This document shows, piece after piece, positions 1 through 6,142 of a DNA stretch of 6,142 nt; within the stretch, counting starts at the first letter, position 1, and each line of letters opens with the position of its first letter. The notes under the pieces are model-generated. The model was given only the letters and a program-made list of their open reading frames with translations, had not been told where the DNA came from and ran no database searches. This DNA comes from Candidatus Zhuqueibacterota bacterium (GTDB lineage: Bacteria; BS750m-G25): assembly GCA_016783505.1 (NCBI GenBank), contig JADHWK010000083.1, forward strand, positions 1 through 6,142, given 5' to 3'. Made by a program: the position numbers and the translations under genes.

Positions 1-12
1 TATCTAACGGGG
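1..12. mobile_element. Right end of a small inverted-repeat element (element E5, partial)
   Basis: The window opens with TATCTAACGGGG, identical to the right terminal repeat of the complete element at 4707-4804. It is followed by TAAA (13-16), the same 4-bp sequence that flanks that element as a target duplication. The rest of the element lies outside the window. It appears to interrupt the lipoprotein gene read on the minus strand. Only one end is visible, so the insertion is inferred from sequence identity; the octamer-plus-CCCC core could in principle be a native stretch of the gene. Confidence 0.6.
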
Positions 13-868: not shown

Positions 869-972
869 CCCTGTTAAATAATAAAATTAATTCATTTAGT
901 TTAACCTTACTGCCTTAAATAATTTTTCAGCCTGTTTCTTAAGAAATAACCAATTGTAAATATTTAACAGGG
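869..972. mobile_element. Small inverted-repeat element E1 (104 bp)
   Basis: The element begins CCCTGTTAAATA and ends TATTTAACAGGG, a perfect 12-bp terminal inverted repeat. Flanks are TTCA (865-868) and TAAA (973-976), so the 4-bp duplication seen at related copies is imperfect here. The interior is very AT-rich, has no ORF, and contains a perfect 12-bp palindrome TTTCTTAAGAAA (935-946). Its first ~40 bp resemble the copy at 5623-5720 (shared CATTTAGTTT); the rest does not align well. This copy lies in non-coding DNA. With no coding capacity it would have to be mobilised in trans. Confidence 0.75.
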
Positions 973-973
973 T

Positions 974-1031
974 AAAATCCTACGAAGGATTTATCCCGTG
1001 AAATTGAACGAAGTGAATTATTTCACTGGGA
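974..1031. repeat. Two adjacent small hairpins
   Basis: A 7-bp stem AAATCCT/AGGATTT with loop ACGA lies at 975-992. Directly next to it, CCCGTGAAAT (995-1004) pairs with ATTTCACTGGG (1020-1030) with one bulged T. The second hairpin echoes the termini of the ~100-bp elements (CCC-GT-AAAT / ATTT-AC-GGG) with a 15-nt loop. No T-run follows either hairpin, so they do not look like intrinsic terminators. They abut the right end of element E1. Confidence 0.6.
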
Positions 1032-1047
1032 GGTATTTCATCGGGGA

Positions 1048-1080
1048 GTTATTAAGTCCTTGGGTTATTAGGTCAATAAG
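1048..1080. repeat. 8-bp tandem repeat, locus 2
   Basis: Four octamers in a row: GTTATTAA, GTCCTTGG, GTTATTAG, GTCAATAA. They match the degenerate GTYATTRG consensus of the other tracts in the window. No coding role is seen. Confidence 0.6.
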
Positions 1081-1152
1081 CGCCGTGCGTAGTCCGTAGG
1101 GCGGTAAACGTTAAATCGACGTTACTTACAGAGGCATAGATAATCCAAGGTC

Positions 1153-1434
1153 TCAGCCACCTGCAATCTGCCGTTGAATGTTTGATGTTGGCAGGCCCTG
1201 TTTCTCAAGCGCAGCATAGAGTTCTCGAACGCCCAGTCCCAGCTCGTTGGCAAAATATTCCAGGCTGATCCTGCCAGCTTCAAACTCCCGATATAGTTGC
1301 TCCAGGCGATGCTCGAAGCCCAAATTGATCAACTCAGCCAGGTGCTGGCCTACCTCGCCAATAGCACCACTGGCTTTGCGTCGCTCGGCCGACCGCAAAA
1401 TCTCTTCCTTAATCGGAACTACCACTTTTGGCAT
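1153..1434 (-). CDS. UPF0175-like putative antitoxin, second gene of TA module 1
   Basis: The 93-residue product has a helical N-terminal half (about 8-45: EEILRSAERRKASGAIGEVG...) and a C-terminal half matching the UPF0175 pattern: LEQLYREFEAGRISLEYFAN, then ELGLGVRELYAALEKQGLPT, a helix-turn-helix-like segment. Proteins of this family are commonly found beside PIN-domain toxins and are thought to act as antitoxins and DNA-binding autoregulators. The start at 1434 is supported by GAGG at 1444-1447, 9 nt upstream. The first 26 bases overlap the end of the PIN gene, so the two are translationally linked. The order toxin then antitoxin is the reverse of the usual arrangement. The base composition is richer in G+C than the flanking sequence. 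The antitoxin role is inferred from family resemblance and pairing. Confidence 0.7.
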   Translation of the reverse strand: MPKVVVPIKEEILRSAERRKASGAIGEVGQHLAELINLGFEHRLEQLYREFEAGRISLEYFANELGLGVRELYAALEKQGLPTSNIQRQIAGG

Positions 1435-1948
1435 CTTTTTTTACCTCACGTAATTTCTCCAGGCTATACTCGATTACCCCAGCCCGATAACGCGGCCGAA
1501 TCACCTCAAGTATAGTCCTTGCCAGCCTACTTGTCAACAGCCCTCGGCTCATTAACTCGATCACCAGATCAGGAAGCATCCATACTGCCAACCCCAGTCG
1601 TGTCGCGGTAACAAACGCCAGATGATCATCCGTAACGAGCGCTTGCACATTCGGTTCCTGACCACACAGTCCGATGCTATCTCGCTCGCCATCTCCCAGC
1701 GCATATTCGTGCAAATGACGGTCCCAGCGCCTGGCGCTTACACTGACGACCCGAATCCTGCCATCCGCTATGCGTTCGCCTGCCGCCACACCATCGGGAT
1801 ATATGGCGCCCATTATGGCTACCTCCTCTTCCACAGACGGCGGAATCAGGACCCTGCAATCCGTGAGCAGATGGTCAATCACCAGTTTTTTCTCAACTTC
1901 AAACTTACAGGCTGTGATCAGCGGGCCGGCATCGAACACCACGTTCAT
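1409..1948 (-). CDS. PIN-domain putative ribonuclease toxin, first gene of TA module 1
   Basis: The 179-residue protein starts MNVVFDAGPLI, giving the first PIN acidic residue Asp6. Further candidate metal ligands are Glu40-42 (SVEEEV), Asp86/Glu88/Asp90 (GDGERDSIG) and Asp107-Asp108 (LVTDDHLA). This spacing is PIN-like and closest in style to the longer DUF3368-type PIN proteins found with UPF0175 partners. PIN toxins are Mg2+-dependent RNases that usually cleave tRNA, rRNA or mRNA; the target here is unknown. Its ATG overlaps the stop of the upstream truncated beta-helix gene by 4 bp (ATGA), with a weak GGGGA ahead of it. The 3' end overlaps the UPF0175-like partner by 26 bp. All the acidic residues expected for catalysis are present. 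The G+C-rich composition contrasts with the AT-rich neighbours and suggests recent acquisition. Confidence 0.75.
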   Translation of the reverse strand: MNVVFDAGPLITACKFEVEKKLVIDHLLTDCRVLIPPSVEEEVAIMGAIYPDGVAAGERIADGRIRVVSVSARRWDRHLHEYALGDGERDSIGLCGQEPNVQALVTDDHLAFVTATRLGLAVWMLPDLVIELMSRGLLTSRLARTILEVIRPRYRAGVIEYSLEKLREVKKDAKSGSSD

Positions 1949-2472
1949 ACAATCCCCACTTCATCATTCCCAACCACCACATTCCTTTCTATCAGGCCCG
2001 AACTTACACCTTCAAACTGCAATCCCACCCTATTGCCTTCGGCAAGAATAAAAGATAAATGATGAAGGATTGAGGGGACAGAAGAAAAGCAAATGCCGGT
2101 GTCAGAACAATTTCTCACGATAAGGTGGTTTAGTTCCGGCGACGCCCCATCGGAGTAAACCCCAAAGTTAGCGTATTCTATTTTGCACCAGGACATGCGG
2201 GAGTTGGTGCTGGAGGAGGAAAATTCAATTCTATTCCAGCTACCCAGGGAAGAGGAGTTAGTCATATCGGAGTGGGGAGGGGTTAGTGATGAGTTGCTGA
2301 TTGTTGATTGCGCCCAGGCGGGCGGGCGTCTGCCCGGATTGTTGATTGTCCCGAATGCTCGGTACTGATAGCTGACAGCTGAATCCATAATCCGTGATCC
2401 GGGATGAAATGGGGAATTGAAAAATAATAAGAATAGGCAACTAAGAATTAGGATGATTTTTTTGTTTTTCAT
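1945..2472 (-). pseudogene. Truncated secreted beta-helix protein, copy A
   Basis: The product from the ATG at 2472 starts MKNKKIILILSCLFLLFFN, a clear signal peptide; an in-frame ATG at 2487 is possible but gives a less typical start. Residues about 23-70 are low-complexity and derive from simple DNA repeats (GATTGTTGATTG at 2299-2310 and 2337-2348). From about 72 comes a beta-helix segment: LGSWNRIEFS, SRMSWCKIEYANFGVYSDGA, LNHLIVRNCS, GLIERNVVVGNDEVGI. The N-x-x-I and asparagine-ladder turns are typical of parallel beta-helices. The ORF stops after 175 residues with its TGA inside the ATG of the PIN toxin gene, far short of a full beta-helix. The segment 2104-2250 is about 90% identical by eye to 5292-5434. 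I infer that the 3' part was replaced by TA module 1. A shortened secreted product could still be made. Confidence 0.7.
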
Positions 2473-2563
2473 TTTTGGTTTATTCAATTAGACGATATAC
2501 GATAATAAATCGGAATTCAGTGTAGATCCTAGTCTTTAAGAGACTTTTAGTTATTCTTAATCA

Positions 2564-2950
2564 TCACCATATTGTTTCCACCACTTTTGCACTGGCAATT
2601 GTTTCATCCTTTGTAATTAAAGGAACCCCAGAAAAAAGTGCTGTTGCCACAATAAGTCTGTCGTGCATCTCCAGATCCACAGAAATGGTATCGGCTGTTT
2701 TCAGAACATCTACATCTAAAGGGACAATCTCGAAATTTTCATACATCTCCAGTCGGGTAAGCGTCTCCGCAAAGGTCAAAACGGTCTTACCCTTCTGGGC
2801 GATGTACATCAGCTCTGCCAGCACGATTGTCGGGACTAAAATGAGGCCTTCCTTTAGGGTTTCTTCAAAAGCATTTGAGGCTTTAAGACTTAACCTCTCG
2901 TCTTCCATAAAATACCAGACCAACGGATGGGTGTCTGTGAGATAATCCAT
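2564..2950 (-). CDS. vapC: VapC-type PIN-domain ribonuclease toxin, TA module 2
   Basis: The 128-residue protein starting MDYLTDTHPLVWY has the four VapC acidic positions: Asp6 (LTDTH), Glu46 (VLAELM), Asp97 (EMHDRLIVATA) and Asp115 (LITKDE). Length and motifs match the usual ~130-residue VapC. An in-frame GTG two codons upstream (2956) is possible, but ATG at 2950 places the DTH motif at the standard distance from the start. Family members are Mg2+-dependent RNases neutralised by the VapB antitoxin. The gene lies 21 bp downstream of the VapB-like gene in the same transcript and shows no damage. It is the closest relative in the window of the split toxin at 4551-5042 (shared VPTIVL, HDR and ITxD segments). 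Confidence 0.88.
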   Translation of the reverse strand: MDYLTDTHPLVWYFMEDERLSLKASNAFEETLKEGLILVPTIVLAELMYIAQKGKTVLTFAETLTRLEMYENFEIVPLDVDVLKTADTISVDLEMHDRLIVATALFSGVPLITKDETIASAKVVETIW

Positions 2951-2971
2951 AAGCACCGTAGAATTACAGGG

Positions 2972-3208
2972 TCAGTGATCCTCGTAATGAAAAAGCGACC
3001 GCCGAGCTTCTCTGAATAGATGTTCGTCAATTTGGCTTCCTTTCCAGATCCCTTTTAAGGAACCCCGCCCATTCCCCTTCTTTTTAGTTACCCTCTGCCA
3101 CTGAACTTCAAGAAGCCTGATCATCCTGTAGAGACTAGGAATAATTTCCCGAGGAAGCGTTTGGATTTCCTCGATAATTTTCTCGCGATAGTTTTGTTGT
3201 ATAGCCAT
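2972..3208 (-). CDS. VapB-like antitoxin, TA module 2
   Basis: The 78-residue protein has an amphipathic N-terminal half (YREKIIEEIQTLPREIIPSL..., about 7-45), a basic linker (TKKKGNGRG) and a C-terminal toxin-binding-like tail, GSLKGIWKGSQIDEHLF then REARRSLFHYED. The tail motif SLxGxxKG...EAxRSLF is shared with the antitoxin at 5043-5261, so both belong to one family (VapB / DUF2281-like by resemblance). The start at 3208 has AGGAG about 7-8 nt upstream, inside the end of the preceding RHH gene, with only 1 nt between genes. The product would bind and inhibit the VapC encoded directly downstream and probably autoregulate the operon. Confidence 0.75.
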   Translation of the reverse strand: MAIQQNYREKIIEEIQTLPREIIPSLYRMIRLLEVQWQRVTKKKGNGRGSLKGIWKGSQIDEHLFREARRSLFHYEDH

Positions 3209-3209
3209 T

Positions 3210-3425
3210 TCACAACTCCTTTTCCTTCAAAGCCGCTTCAAAATTCGCCAATGCTTCGTCACTTAGCTTATCCCATGCCCTTAATTCATCTTCTAAGCCC
3301 TCTTCCACTATGGGTAAATAATACCTCAGGGCTTCAACGACAATTTCTTCTTGTGTTGTCTTTTTCCCCTTTGCCAGTTTTGTGACCTTTTCCCCAATAT
3401 CGTTTGGAATAGTTACTTTTATCAT
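3210..3425 (-). CDS. Ribbon-helix-helix (CopG/Arc-like) protein, first gene of TA module 2
   Basis: The 71-residue product begins MIKVTIPNDIGEKVTKLAKG then KKTTQEEIVVEALRYYLP. This is the beta-strand, helix, turn, helix plan of an RHH DNA-binding domain (residues 1-38). It is followed by an acidic helix, LEDELRAWDKLSDEALANFE, typical of an antitoxin's toxin-binding tail. The start at 3425 has GGGAG (3433-3437) at a good distance. It leads a tight operon (1-nt gap to the VapB-like gene). An RHH protein in addition to a VapB-like antitoxin is unusual. It may be the operon repressor, a second antitoxin, or an orphan from another module. Confidence 0.7.
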   Translation of the reverse strand: MIKVTIPNDIGEKVTKLAKGKKTTQEEIVVEALRYYLPIVEEGLEDELRAWDKLSDEALANFEAALKEKEL

Positions 3426-3429
3426 GATT

Positions 3430-3642
3430 TTACTCCCTTATGTTTAGTTTAAATGAAGAAATTGAGACATTTATATTTACACCAAAGTTGGCATATTCTA
3501 TTTTGCACCAAGACATGCGTGAGTTGGTGCTGGAGGGGGAGAATTCAATTCGGTTCCAGGAGCCAAGCTGGGCTGTAACCTAATTAAGAATTAAGAAAAT
3601 TAAAACCCAGAAATTGGCCAAGTTTATGTTGGTTTTTGTCAT
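3430..3642 (-). pseudogene. Truncated secreted beta-helix protein, copy B, with an internal stop
   Basis: The frame starts at ATG 3642 as MTKTNINLANFWVLIFLILN, a signal peptide nearly identical to copy C. A TAG at 3580-3582 then replaces the TCG serine codon of copy C, a single base change. The frame continues with VTAQLGSWNRIEFSPSS and SRMSWCKIEYANFGV. Homology to the other copies ends near 3482, after which the frame reads unrelated residues and stops at 3430-3432, directly ahead of the RHH gene. The copy is therefore both truncated and nonsense-mutated. It lies in the same orientation directly upstream of TA module 2, so its promoter region may now serve that operon. Confidence 0.75.
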
Positions 3643-3804
3643 TTTTTGAAGAATGTTTCATTTACTTAAAAGGGTGAAAAGGGTCCCGATTCCGAATTTT
3701 GTTCAGATCGAGGATCCCGACCACAAGTGTCGGGACTTAACAGGGCTTTATCCCGAAGCTTCGGGGTTAAAAAAGGCAATAGAGCGGAAAGGGCTCTGGT
3801 TTCA
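3643..3804. repeat. Spacer with mini-palindromes of the TCCCGA...TCGGGA type
   Basis: No gene is seen. TCCCGAC (3715-3721) pairs with GTCGGGA (3729-3735) across a 7-nt loop. CCCGAAGCTTCGGG (3752-3765) is a perfect 14-bp palindrome. Between them, CTTAACAGGG (3737-3746) resembles a lone right end of the ~100-bp elements, and GGGCTTTATCCC (3743-3754) is another inverted repeat. Neither hairpin is followed by a T-run in either direction, so terminator function is not supported. A hairpin of the same style sits inside a broken gene at 5850-5865. Confidence 0.55.
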
Positions 3805-3854
3805 TTAAGCCTTTGATAGCTTTTTTTCGCTTTTACGACCTTTTACAGCCTTTT
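3805..3854. repeat. 50-bp direct repeat, left copy, flanking the first four-helix pseudogene
   Basis: This segment aligns without gaps to 4309-4358 with 41 of 50 identical positions, including CCTTTTACAGCCTTTT, identical at 3839-3854 and 4343-4358. Both are built from degenerate AAAAGGCT units (minus-strand reading). The end of the four-helix gene (stop at 3843) lies within this copy. The pair brackets the gene like the ends of a cassette. Confidence 0.7.
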
Positions 3855-4259
3855 GCCCCCCTTTTTGCCCACTTCTTTTCTCTTGTTTTCTAATGAAAAC
3901 CGTAGTCTATCAATCAAATACATTGTTTGCATTGATAATTTATCAAAAGCATCGTAATCATCGTTGCTCACCAGATTCTTACGTAAAGCCCTTCTTATCC
4001 TTTCTTGTAGTTCACCCAACGATCGTTTGCTATAATTAAGAAATCTTAGGTATTCACCCAATGAGCCACTATAATACCCCTCAACAAAATTTGCTCCTGT
4101 TGAATCAGAAGCATCATCTATTTAATTTTTAAGTTTGAGATATCTATCAGGAATCCTTTTTAAAATTTTCTGAACCAAAACATCAAGTTTGTCAATGTTT
4201 TGCCAGACCTTCATCTTCTTGTGCCCATGTAGCTTCTGTCCCCTTTCTTCAGTTTTCAT
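3843..4259 (-). pseudogene. S23-type four-helix-bundle protein, nonsense-mutated (copy 1)
   Basis: The frame from ATG 4259 gives MKTEERGQKLHGHKKMKVWQ, NIDKLDVLVQKILKRIPDRY, LKLKN, then TAA at 4122-4124. Without a frame change it continues IDDASDSTGANFVEGYYSGS, LGEYLRFLNYSKRSLGELQE, and so on to the stop at 3843. This is the S23 / 23S rRNA intervening-sequence four-helix-bundle family (KVWQ; GANFVEGYYS; EYLRFLNYSKRSLGELQ). The stop most likely replaces CAA (Gln), a single C-to-T change; the restored length is about 138 residues, normal for the family. An upstream in-frame ATG at 4304 would add 15 repeat-derived residues. Proteins of this family form homopentamers in solved structures; their function outside rRNA spacers is poorly known. 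Confidence 0.8.
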
Positions 4260-4308
4260 TTTGCCTTGAATTTCATTCTTTAAGCCGTTTCTAGCCTTGT
4301 TCATCTTT

Positions 4309-4358
4309 TTAAGCCTTCTTTAGCCTTTTTTCACTTTTGAAGCCTTTTACAGCCTTTT
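4309..4358. repeat. 50-bp direct repeat, right copy, flanking the first four-helix pseudogene
   Basis: This copy aligns to 3805-3854 over 50 bp (about 82% identity, no gaps). On the minus strand it consists of AAAAGGCT-like units that continue at lower similarity into the 5' end of the four-helix reading frame (to about 4280). It begins exactly where the reading frame of the lipoprotein fragment at 4358-4456 stops. Confidence 0.7.
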
Positions 4359-4456
4359 TAACCCTCTACAATAATTTGAAAGAGGTCAGGATCGAGTTGA
4401 ACTGTTTCATACAAATCTACCGATATGGCTGAGAAGTATTTTTCTATTTTTTCCCA
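4358..4456 (-). pseudogene. Remnant of a second carboxypeptidase-regulatory-like lipoprotein gene
   Basis: The minus-strand frame reads ...SAISVDLYETVQLDPDLFQ then IIVEG and a TAA at 4358-4360. It resembles residues about 43-58 of the lipoprotein at 1-655 (GITISLYEPIELDPDM): LYE and LDPD are identical, and the DNA matches in CAGGATCGAGTT (4387-4398, versus the stretch near 487-498). There is no start codon or signal peptide. I read it as a scrap of a paralogue whose other parts are lost; the match is short, so a chance resemblance is possible. Confidence 0.5.
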
Positions 4457-4480
4457 TTTTTGTAAGACTTAACAATATGT

Positions 4481-4549
4481 TTATTATTGGGTCATTAAAG
4501 TCATTGTGTAATTTAGTTGACTTTTTGCTTTTTTCCAATGACCCGATAA
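4481..4549. repeat. 8-bp repeat, locus 3, with an inverted arm
   Basis: TTATTGGGTCATT at 4484-4496 is followed by further GTCATT units and is matched in inverse by AATGACCCGATAA at 4537-4549 (one mismatch). Inner segments AGTCA (4499-4503) and TTGACT (4516-4521) can also pair, so the tract could fold into a long imperfect hairpin. It sits just downstream of the vapC pseudogene stop at 4551 (minus strand). No clear T-run terminator is seen. Confidence 0.5.
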
Positions 4550-4550
4550 G

Positions 4551-5042
4551 CTATTCAATAATTGTGACCTCACCAGAATCCTTTATGATCCGGTCTCTTG
4601 TAATAATCCCCGCACCATAAAATCTCGCTGTTGCCGATATGATGCGATCATGGATCTCTATAACCCCTTTCGCCCTTATCGTTTCATCAAAAATCTCAGG
4701 GGTAAACCCCGTTAGATAACATTGTAAATTTGGACATTTAAGTAGGTTTTTTTGAAACTTACTAATTCTATCAGCTAATAAAGATTACAGAATATCTAAC
4801 GGGGTAAACCCAATGATCTCAAAACTTGGATCATTCCTTACAAACCGATACATTTCCTCAAAATCAAACTCAGCCTTTCGCTTCTCCGCTATATCAAGAG
4901 CCTCCGAAAGCACTATCGTAGGGACTAACAACTTCCCTCCCATAATACGACATCTATCAATGGCTTCCCTGGCCTTAAGTTTTAGCCGTCTGCTGCCAAT
5001 TAAATACCAGATGAGACTATGAGTATCCAATAGATAATTCAT
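4551..5042 (-). pseudogene. vapC: VapC-type PIN toxin split by a 98-bp element, TA module 3
   Basis: From ATG 5042 the frame encodes MNYLLDTHSLIWYLIGSRRL ... SFEIIGFT (80 residues), then enters the element at 4707-4804, reads PLDIL and stops at 4785. The rest of the toxin resumes beyond the element as PEIFDETIRAKGVIEIHDRI, ISATARFYGAGIITRDRIIK, DSGEVTIIE and a TAG at 4551-4553. Joining the halves with one TAAA target copy gives an uninterrupted 129-residue VapC with Asp6, Glu47, Asp98 and Asp116, the same length and plan as the toxin at 2564-2950. The truncated product lacks Asp98 and Asp116 and should be inactive. Its start directly abuts the antitoxin stop (TAGATG). The insertion leaves an intact antitoxin with a disabled toxin. 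Confidence 0.9.
4707..4804. mobile_element. Small inverted-repeat element E4 (98 bp) inside vapC
   Basis: Ends are CCCCGTTAGATA and TATCTAACGGGG, a perfect 12-bp inverted repeat, with TAAA on both sides (4703-4706 and 4805-4808) as a 4-bp target duplication. Removing the element and one TAAA rejoins GAG ATC ATT GGG TTT with ACC CCT GAG and restores the VapC frame. The interior carries a 9-bp hairpin (AGTAGGTTT at 4741-4749 with AAACTTACT at 4755-4763) and no ORF. The terminal sequence differs from the other complete copies by CCCC for CCCT and GATA for AATA, marking a subfamily shared with the end at 1-12. Confidence 0.88.
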
Positions 5043-5261
5043 CTATATATCTTTCAGTTCCCGGAATAGGGAGCGCTTGGCCTCTTTTATCATCTCCTCT
5101 GTGACATCTCCCCCCTTAACGCTACCGTATAAAGAAGCCTTTTGAATTCTCCTCGTCGGCTGAATACCTCTCACCAACGCCCGTTTTAAGAACTCCAATT
5201 GTCTCTGCATAGTATCTAGGCGCTTTAGAAAACGTTCGGTATCTAACAATGCCTTGCTCAT
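5043..5261 (-). CDS. VapB-like antitoxin, TA module 3
   Basis: The 72-residue product starts MSKALLDTERFLKRLDTMQR with a helical N-terminal half (to about residue 30) and ends ASLYGSVKGGDVTEEMIKEA then KRSLFRELKDI. The tail matches the SLxGxxKG...EAxRSLF motif of the antitoxin at 2972-3208, placing both in one VapB-like family. AAGGG and GAGG lie just upstream of the ATG, and a TATAAT box precedes them. The stop codon TAG directly abuts the ATG of the disrupted vapC. The gene looks intact even though its toxin is broken, so it may persist as an orphan antitoxin. Confidence 0.75.
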   Translation of the reverse strand: MSKALLDTERFLKRLDTMQRQLEFLKRALVRGIQPTRRIQKASLYGSVKGGDVTEEMIKEAKRSLFRELKDI

Positions 5262-5267
5262 TTTCCC

Positions 5268-5510
5268 TTACCTCATTACATTATACCAATTAGAACAATT
5301 TCTCACGATAAGGTGTTTCAGTTCCGGCGAAGCCCCATCGCAGTAAATCCCAAAGTTAGCGTATTCTATTTTGCACCAGTACATGCGGGAGTTGGTACTG
5401 GAGGGGGAAAACTCAATTCTATTCCAATCGCCAGGCTGGGCTGTAACCGAATTAAGAATTAAGAAAATTAAAACCCAGAAATTGGCCAAGTTTTTGTTGG
5501 TTTTTGACAT
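5268..5510 (-). pseudogene. Truncated secreted beta-helix protein, copy C
   Basis: The frame starts at ATG 5510 with signal peptide MSKTNKNLANFWVLIFLILN followed by SVTAQ, then the mature start PGDWNRIEFSPSS, SRMYWCKIEYANFGIYCDGA and LKHLIVRNCS. Homology with copy A stops at RNCS (near 5292); the last seven residues (NWYNVMR) come from the regulatory region of TA module 3 and include its TATAAT. The 80-residue ORF therefore carries only the first two or three coils of a beta-helix. The first 80 bp of this copy match copy B at about 95% by eye, and the next 145 bp match copy A at about 90%. A short secreted peptide could still be produced, but the gene is clearly a fragment. Confidence 0.8.
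5280..5285 (-). promoter_or_regulatory. Candidate -10 box of TA module 3
   Basis: TATAAT, a perfect sigma-70 -10 hexamer on the minus strand, lies 18 nt upstream of the antitoxin ATG at 5261. No good TTGACA is seen 17 bp further upstream. It lies just outside the beta-helix homology, so it would have arrived with the TA cassette or formed at the junction. The call rests on one hexamer in AT-rich DNA. Confidence 0.35.
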
Positions 5511-5511
5511 A

Positions 5512-5575
5512 AGTAATTAAGTCATTGAGTCATTAGGTCATTGGGTTATTGGGTAATTAGTTATTGGGTCATAGT
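5512..5575. repeat. 8-bp tandem repeat, locus 4
   Basis: About eight units follow the pattern GTYATTRG: GTAATTAA, GTCATTGA, GTCATTAG, GTCATTGG, GTTATTGG, GTAATTAG, TTATTGG, GTCATAG. The tract fills the gap between the second four-helix pseudogene, whose last codons and TAA (5561-5563) lie in it, and the start of beta-helix copy C. It is the longest of four such tracts in the window. The strict 8-bp period without spacers excludes a CRISPR array. Confidence 0.75.
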
Positions 5576-5622
5576 CGCTGTTTTCTCTTTTTGCCTTTGA
5601 ATTGAGGCAATATAGCCGTTTA

Positions 5623-5720
5623 CCCTGTTAAATAATACTTGTTTATTAACCATTTAGTTTGATGTTCTTTATATTGTTTTGCTGAAAAAGTCGTTATTAA
5701 ATATCATATATTTAACAGGG
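5623..5720. mobile_element. Small inverted-repeat element E2 (98 bp) inside the second four-helix gene
   Basis: Ends are CCCTGTTAAATA and TATTTAACAGGG (perfect 12 bp). Flanks are TTTA (5619-5622) and TGAA (5721-5724); in gene orientation TTCA and TAAA, so the 4-bp duplication has diverged. Excision keeping TAAA rejoins GTT CTA AAC GGC (Val-Leu-Asn-Gly) in frame, matching the expected LIKVLNGYI of the protein family. The interior is AT-rich without an ORF and shares CATTTAGTTT with the element at 869-972. Confidence 0.85.
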
Positions 5721-5849
5721 TGAAGAACTTTAATCAAGTGATAGGCATCGCGTTTCAAGCTGTCCCGATATTCTTCATCAATGTAACCTTCATCAAAACA
5801 TTCATTGAAGTCGTCTATCAGTTCACATATAGATCCTCTTGATTGACGA

Positions 5850-5865
5850 TCCCGATTATTCGGGA
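5850..5865. repeat. Mini-palindrome TCCCGATTATTCGGGA causing a frameshift
   Basis: A 6-bp stem (TCCCGA/TCGGGA) with loop TTAT sits between the codons for QENI and QSRGS of the second four-helix gene. Family members normally have about four residues there (12 nt); here there are 20 nt, a net +8 that breaks the frame. It resembles the palindromes at 3715-3735 and 3752-3765. Confidence 0.6.
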
Positions 5866-6017
5866 AATATTCTCTTGATAATGGTAGCGACCATAGCCTT
5901 CAGCAATGTTGTTTGTAACCGATAATTTGGCTCTTCGCATTTGACTTTTGAGATTGTATTTTTCTTCTTCTGGTAATATTTTTATTAACATGCTGACTTT
6001 TCGACTAAACGCTCTGG

Positions 6018-6117
6018 CCCTGTTAAATAACCAGCATATCCCATCCGTCGTCAGCGATCTGATCTACCATTTCTAACTTGTTTCAAATAACGTTATCTGT
6101 TGATCTATTTAACAGGG
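6018..6117. mobile_element. Small inverted-repeat element E3 (100 bp) inside the second four-helix gene
   Basis: Ends are CCCTGTTAAATA and TATTTAACAGGG, flanked by a perfect 4-bp direct repeat CTGG (6014-6017 and 6118-6121). Removing the element and one CTGG gives, on the minus strand, AAG TTA GCC AGA GCG TTT (KLARAF), restoring the conserved LEVYKLARAF start of the four-helix family. The interior is less AT-rich than the other copies and does not align with them, although length and ends are conserved. Confidence 0.9.
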
Positions 6118-6142
6118 CTGGCTAACTTATAAACTTCAAGAT

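Follow-up and report, generated by a model that had tools for sequence, protein, structure and literature searches.

Short inverted-ended elements in a Zhuqueibacterota contig as candidate non-autonomous relatives of a GIY-YIG nuclease-encoding mobile family

Introduction

What moves the short, non-coding units of about 100 bp that lie in and between the genes of a small contig of Candidatus Zhuqueibacterota bacterium (BS750m-G25; assembly GCA_016783505.1, contig JADHWK010000083.1)? The window studied here is that whole contig of 6,142 nucleotides (C38 in our numbering), and its home genome comprises 2.51 Mb at 60% completeness. A first-pass annotation of the window had described four complete units and one partial end and had proposed that they were miniature inverted-repeat transposable elements (MITEs) mobilized in trans by a DDE transposase. 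We suggest instead that the units are probably MITE-like and non-autonomous and belong to a family of minute transposon-like elements that encode only a GIY-YIG endonuclease of ~85 amino acids (aa). This reading, drawn from sequence comparison, rests on the ends that the short and the coding elements have in common, on a rule for their flanking words, on the one extra 4-nucleotide (nt) word at occupied sites, and on the existence of empty sites. It rests further on the covariation of the terminal inverted repeat (TIR) type with the nuclease clade and on a deletion derivative in which part of the nuclease gene remains.

Results

Short GIY-YIG genes within family ends

To identify a coding partner, we scanned the retrieved DNA for intervals of 140 to 4500 bp bounded by one clean end pair. 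There were two cases, one of which had a recognizable open reading frame (ORF): a 280-bp stretch of Scalindua rubra (L137; 276 bp between the TIR edges), inserted in a GxxExxY gene (PF13366). The ORF in it encodes a GIY-YIG domain (PF01541; E = 2e-17). When 30 element-bearing genomes were searched with PF01541 and the loci retrieved, 110 short GIY-YIG ORFs were obtained. Perfect TIRs starting with CCC were accepted around 20 of them and around 1 of 697 short ORFs of other kinds (Fisher P ~ 2e-17); 22 GIY-YIG cases had been accepted before two doubtful ones were dropped. The accepted elements have TIRs of 10 to 20 bp, total lengths of 276 to 314 bp, and a nuclease of ~85 aa. Nucleotide similarity among them generally ends at or near the TIR. 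A search of plasmids with the nuclease gave one weak match.

The TIR sequence varies by lineage (CCCTGTTAAATAA, CCCCGTTAGAGATA, TCCCGTTAGTGAC, CCCCGTGAGATAA, TCCCACACATAACTAATGCG, TCCCTCACCCTTAAAGCAT, and others). In one subfamily the GIY-YIG proteins end in SYLTG (e.g., those of L137, L330, and L269). Mapped onto the nuclease tree, TIR type required 3 changes, compared with 12.3 after shuffling (0 of 500 shuffles). The nine proteins with CCCYGTTAAA-type ends formed a 97/98 clade that spans Scalindua, Desulfobacteraceae, Patescibacteria, and Bacteroidetes. In the nucleases of the ~280-bp elements, residues Y, YxG, R, and H, which resemble an active site, are invariant, and a distal E is nearly so. 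The closest solved structures by sequence are 1ywl (E = 4e-5) and 1zg2 (E = 7e-5), which are small GIY-YIG proteins of the UPF0213/YhbQ type. A 144-bp element from Patescibacteria (L370) contains nuclease codons 1 to 26, followed directly by the right end, with both ends intact (tblastn, 57.7%; E = 4e-8). Judged from this arrangement, it is an internal-deletion derivative, the kind expected of a non-autonomous copy.

Ends and flanking words

We scanned GTDB genomes with the pattern CCCTGTTARAT(66-96)ATYTAACAGGG and obtained at least 119 stretches. Together with the elements of the home genome, the retrieved elements made a set of 136 unique sequences in 91 interior clusters. Position 9, which the pattern left free, was complementary between the two ends in 91 of 91 clusters (58 A-T, 33 G-C, and no mismatch). 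Outside each end stands a 4-nt word whose outer bases pair: counted over cluster representatives, T..A (101) and C..G (63) words far outnumbered T..G (5) and C..A (1) words (P = 2e-39).

The first-pass annotation had read these words as 4-bp target duplications. Exact duplications do exceed expectation, occurring in 10 of 91 clusters (~11%) compared with 1.4 by re-pairing, with no excess at 3 bp and none at 5 bp; most copies, however, carry two different words: one end is flanked by TTYA (TRAA in the outward direction), the opposite end by a C..G or T..A word. Among the elements with an ORF, TRAA follows the ORF in 16 of 20 cases and a variable word precedes it, so the non-coding copies can be oriented as well. 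Frame tests in two genes assigned the non-TRAA word to the target. When the L137 element was removed, the GxxExxY gene scored 55.7 bits with the left word TTTA kept and 49.2 bits with TGAA kept, and the left word at this site therefore belongs to the target. These patterns suggest that the flanking words are usually not a true target duplication but a fixed, element-borne TRAA plus a word of the target.

The word rule bears on the first-pass proposal. If the units were classical MITEs derived from a DDE insertion sequence (IS1380-like or from another family with 4-bp duplications), inverted ends that begin with CCC, as these do, would be in keeping, and the exact duplications in about one-ninth of the clusters would be accounted for. 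A fixed word and a target word in most copies would not be expected. No transposase ORF lay within a clean end pair in the retrieved DNA, where the only recognizable ORF so placed was the GIY-YIG nuclease. Likewise, no IS1380 transposase appeared between end pairs, a result that comes without a search aimed directly at that family. We therefore consider mobilization by a DDE transposase quite improbable and the guessed IS1380 link unsupported.

The same words recall another class of elements. IS200/IS605 elements are flanked by a tetranucleotide from the target at one end and by one of their own at the opposite end. If the units were REPIN-like or IS200/IS605-like and mobilized by a Y1 (HUH) transposase, this would explain the fixed 4-nt word on one side and the usual lack of a true duplication, as well as the conserved length and hairpin-forming ends. 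In REPINs, too, the defining features are the ends, the length, and the capacity to form a hairpin (PMC3116915), and Y1 genes are present in the home genome. Against this, 5 of 10 element-bearing genomes (G121, G106, G125, G102, and G107) had no Y1_Tnp match, an end lay nearby at only 1 of 30 Y1 loci, and true 4-bp duplications also exist. We regard a Y1-driven origin as very unlikely.

Three other ideas were tried and rejected. A target duplication outside the words showed no comparable enrichment. Guide-like pairing of the flanking word with the interior had no clear partner, the best interior position being marginally above the shuffled maximum. Integron attC sites were considered because the ends match GTTRRRY/RYYYAAC; on sequence inspection, the arrangement is inverted.

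Distribution and length

A genome-wide count of the kind suggested by the first-pass annotation found 31 exact CCCYGTTARATA sites in the home genome, compared with 1 for the reversed control. Pairing these ends gave ~20 elements, with lengths of 30 to 33 bp (seven elements), 44 bp, 62 bp (two), 80 bp, and 95 to 104 bp. When the interior of a 98-bp copy was compared with the home genome, it matched its own copy, end-length pieces, and otherwise only chance-level sequence; the family is therefore defined by its ends and lengths and not by a common interior. A single MITE lineage with a shared interior was rejected on the whole set as well, since the 136 elements fell into 91 interior clusters and an oriented alignment had no conserved interior. 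Recent subfamilies with related interiors do occur, one with 16 copies, mostly from a single metagenome-assembled genome (MAG; CSMAG_2168), and another with 6 copies over Scalindua and other Planctomycetes.

The GTDB stretches came from Planctomycetota (many from Scalindua and Brocadiaceae), Desulfobacterales, Cloacimonadota, and Bacteroidetes, and the matches listed also included many Patescibacteria, Marinimicrobia, WOR-3, and TA06. In 97 unrelated genomes, the ends occurred at background only, with 6 in one of them (G093). A scan of IMG/VR for the CCCC-type ~100-bp form gave no match. Within the scanned range, lengths peaked at 93 to 102 bp. Single-end searches with no preset length gave pairs of ~60 to 66, 90 to 110, and 270 to 300 bp, with few at other sizes.

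Several arrangements were seen along the way. The home genome has 33-bp versions with CGAG duplications (L007 1480-1512 and L042 1501-1533, listed together with L008, L022, L028, and L030), and in this same group, copies of 31 to 32 bp sit inside a CACCCCCACC..CCCTCCCCC repeat. In a Bacteroidetes genome (L126 1858-2395; G102, contigs C31 and C35), 108-bp elements form arrays in which one 4-nt word, such as TAAA, stands between neighbors. Cloacimonadota NIOZ-UU1 (L356, L359, and L366) has identical 63-bp copies with near-identical flanks on several contigs, which may have multiplied recently or belong to a composite repeat. Two elements of Patescibacteria (L145:4861-4966 and L176:7583-7700) have family ends that enclose an entire tRNA gene (tRNA-Val gac and tRNA-Pro ggg), and the sequence flanking the L145 element on the right resembles part of another tRNA gene.

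Occupied and empty sites

Empty sites, a comparison that the first-pass annotation had pointed to, were found within the element-bearing genomes themselves. In CSMAG_2168, the empty form of a host repeat is ...GCTGCAATGA-CGAA-GGATGCAGCG... (L208 and L232), and the occupied form is ...GCTGCARTGA-TTTA-[93 bp]-CAGG-GGATG.... A second, widespread repeat, CACC[4 nt]CCCTCYCCC, has exactly 4 nt between its halves in empty copies (42 sites in three genomes), and in occupied copies this space holds a word, the element, and another word. The elements are therefore insertions, and the sites into which they inserted are diverse. In this respect, the earlier description of inserted, MITE-like units with inverted ends was borne out.

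These sites also speak to the idea that the units are non-mobile hairpins, such as RNA processing signals or protein-binding sites, maintained by selection. Strictly complementary ends, a constant length, and a free interior would all suit such a role. It is nevertheless disfavored by the empty sites, by gene interruptions with exact 4-nt bookkeeping, by identical subfamily copies at different loci, and by the spread across phyla, and we give it hardly any credence.

Elements in the window

The window contains nine exact matches to CCCYGTTARATA-type ends or their reverse complement. With up to two mismatches allowed, it contains 14 matches, compared with 2.0 ± 1.3 in shuffled sequence, and 14 was reached in 0 of 200 shuffles. 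The elements and the genes that they interrupt are as follows.

1 to 12, minus strand: right end TATCTAACGGGG (exact end match) of a partial element truncated by the contig start
869 to 972, no strand given: element A, 104 bp, intergenic; flanked by TTCA (865-868) and TAAA (973-976)
4707 to 4804, plus strand: element B, 98 bp, CCCCGTTAGATA type, interrupting a PIN-domain gene; flanked by TAAA (4703-4706) and TAAA (4805-4808)
5623 to 5720, plus strand: element C, 98 bp, CCCTGTTAAATA type, inserted in the 3' portion of a four-helix-bundle gene; target word TTTA (5619-5622) and element-side word TGAA (5721-5724)
6018 to 6117, no strand given: element D, 100 bp, CCCTGTTAAATA type, inserted in the 5' portion of this four-helix-bundle gene; true 4-bp duplication CTGG (6014-6017) and CTGG (6118-6121)
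4785 to 5042, minus strand: 5' part of the PIN-domain gene split by element B (PF01850 positions 1-58)
4560 to 4706, minus strand: 3' part of the PIN-domain gene (PF01850 positions 84-116; E = 0.0046, a match that falls short of the Pfam cut-off)
5560 to 6142, minus strand: four-helix-bundle gene (23S_rRNA_IVP; PF05635) with elements C and D and a separate frameshift

The first-pass annotation had the coordinates, exact ends, and lengths of all these units right, as well as the location of three of them (B, C, and D) in genes. It had also correctly called the repeats around B and D perfect and those around A and C imperfect. The high density that it noted, five ends in 6 kb, is real and not unique, as one Cloacimonadota genome has 209 exact ends. 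Its statement that removal restores the reading frame holds in part. Removing element C or D plus 4 nt restores the local frame of the four-helix-bundle gene. With element D and one CTGG removed, the PF05635 match grows from positions 9-58 (52.5 bits) to 3-58 (60.7 bits). With element C removed, keeping TTTA gives LNGYI, as in three of three other four-helix proteins checked, and keeping TGAA gives LHGYI. The gene has a further frameshift near 5830-5870 that is independent of both elements; it was therefore already decaying anyway, and removing the elements leaves it unmended. The PIN-domain gene around element B was assessed as two separate pieces (profile positions 1-58 and 84-116).

An Rfam scan of the window, with group I and II intron models included, found no family at threshold. 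Elsewhere in the window, a short coding fragment (..NRIEFSSSSTNSRMSWCKIEYANFG.., minus strand) occurs in three similar dispersed copies (2183-2368, 3440-3583, and 5313-5510). Adjacent small gene pairs at 2564-3208, 4785-5261, and 1153-1948 resemble toxin-antitoxin modules, and two of them consist of a PIN domain and a small partner.

Discussion

How the GIY-YIG nuclease might move these elements, in both the cutting and the joining of the DNA, is our inference. The nuclease would recognize the pair of inverted ends, which might be folded into a hairpin or cruciform, and cut at the 4-nt words with pairing outer bases (T..A or C..G) beside them. A target would be opened around a comparable 4-nt word, and the element, usually with a TRAA word at its right end, would then be joined into it. 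The outcome could hinge on how the 4-nt overlap is repaired and be either a target word plus TRAA (the usual case) or a true 4-bp duplication (~11% of clusters); that the repair acts on a heteroduplex, and so explains the duplications in some copies and the two words in most, is our conjecture. The short copies, reduced to the ends and a preferred length, would be moved in trans.

Several observations weigh against this explanation. To our knowledge, GIY-YIG enzymes do not join DNA, so joining would likely require host repair or an activity not yet described. Of six GIY-YIG matches in the home genome, which is 60% complete, none has family ends, and the genome's own mobilizing gene must therefore be missing, lost, or in the unassembled part. 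Apart from the ends, most ~100-bp copies have no sequence in common with the nuclease element. The sample of 110 ORFs is biased toward high-scoring matches in genomes already known to carry short elements, and a few word calls hinge on where the TIR edge is placed. Finally, the empty host repeats mostly have C..A words (CGAA, CTAA, and CCAA), in contrast to the C..G words of occupied ones.

The first two of these points are also what makes the most serious rival attractive, in which the nuclease gene is cargo that rides in or homes into some elements and an enzyme encoded elsewhere moves them all. Other cargo has been seen, in the two tRNA-bearing copies of Patescibacteria. Still, there are at least nine TIR sequences, each tied to its own nuclease lineage. 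The 270- to 300-bp pairs recovered by exact-end pattern searches of genomes were GIY-YIG elements in all six cases, and in the SYLTG-ending subfamily the ORF stops within the end or the word itself. We consider the cargo explanation unlikely and favor elements moved by their own GIY-YIG nuclease.

A broader proposal, which we advance tentatively, is that these elements could form a previously undescribed class of bacterial DNA transposons, present in many phyla, whose entire mobility machinery is the ~85-aa nuclease recognizing inverted ends of ~12 to 20 bp and a paired 4-nt word. If so, the ~280-bp element would count as one of the smallest autonomous mobile elements, feeding swarms of derivatives of 30 to 105 bp. 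The family may also explain the large pool of multicopy small "GIY-YIG family proteins" in environmental genomes. The idea is directly testable, as one small gene and one short DNA suffice.

We found no description of TIR-bounded GIY-YIG elements in the open-access literature (most subscription journals and bioRxiv lay outside this scope), nor the family's end sequences in a relevant context. The bacterial DNA transposons known to us use DDE, HUH, or tyrosine/serine enzymes; a minimal GIY-YIG nuclease with coevolving TIRs and non-autonomous derivatives in many phyla would, if confirmed, add an enzyme class to transposition. The stand-alone UPF0213/YhbQ-type proteins provide the closest solved structures by sequence, and we know of no link between them and mobile ends.

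Among known systems, MITEs (type II, non-autonomous; PMC10969869) are likewise short and non-coding, with inverted ends, interruption of genes, high copy numbers in some genomes, and similarity to a larger element limited to the ends. Unlike them, the present family has a larger partner that encodes a GIY-YIG nuclease and no transposase, exact 4-bp duplications in a minority of copies only, and a fixed TRAA word outside one end. REPINs with their RAYT (PMC3116915) share the paired inverted ends, conserved length, free interior, and predicted hairpin. The present elements, however, are tracked by no Y1/RAYT partner, their GIY-YIG partner is itself mobile, and no GTAG/CGTC tag was seen in their ends. 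Free-standing homing endonuclease genes of the I-TevI type also have a GIY-YIG nuclease as their sole protein. The GIY-YIG domain of I-TevI, a different enzyme, needs 5'-CNNNG-3' (PMC4065259), a cleavage motif with pairing outer bases and a precedent for the kind of word rule proposed here. Such genes differ from the present elements, which have perfect TIRs, many unrelated insertion sites, non-autonomous derivatives, and no intron.

The nearest precedent that we found is a survey of insertions in rRNA genes of the candidate phyla radiation (CPR; PMC11270868). In that survey, GIY-YIG ORFs reportedly occurred only in non-intron insertions, many insertions lacked an ORF and were mostly <200 bp, and the authors placed GIY-YIG outside the homing pattern. 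We found no mention there of inverted ends, of target words, or of a mobile family for these "ISs," in contrast to the elements studied here. A link between the two is plausible, and the GIY-YIG family may possibly explain unexplained short insertions in CPR rRNA genes.

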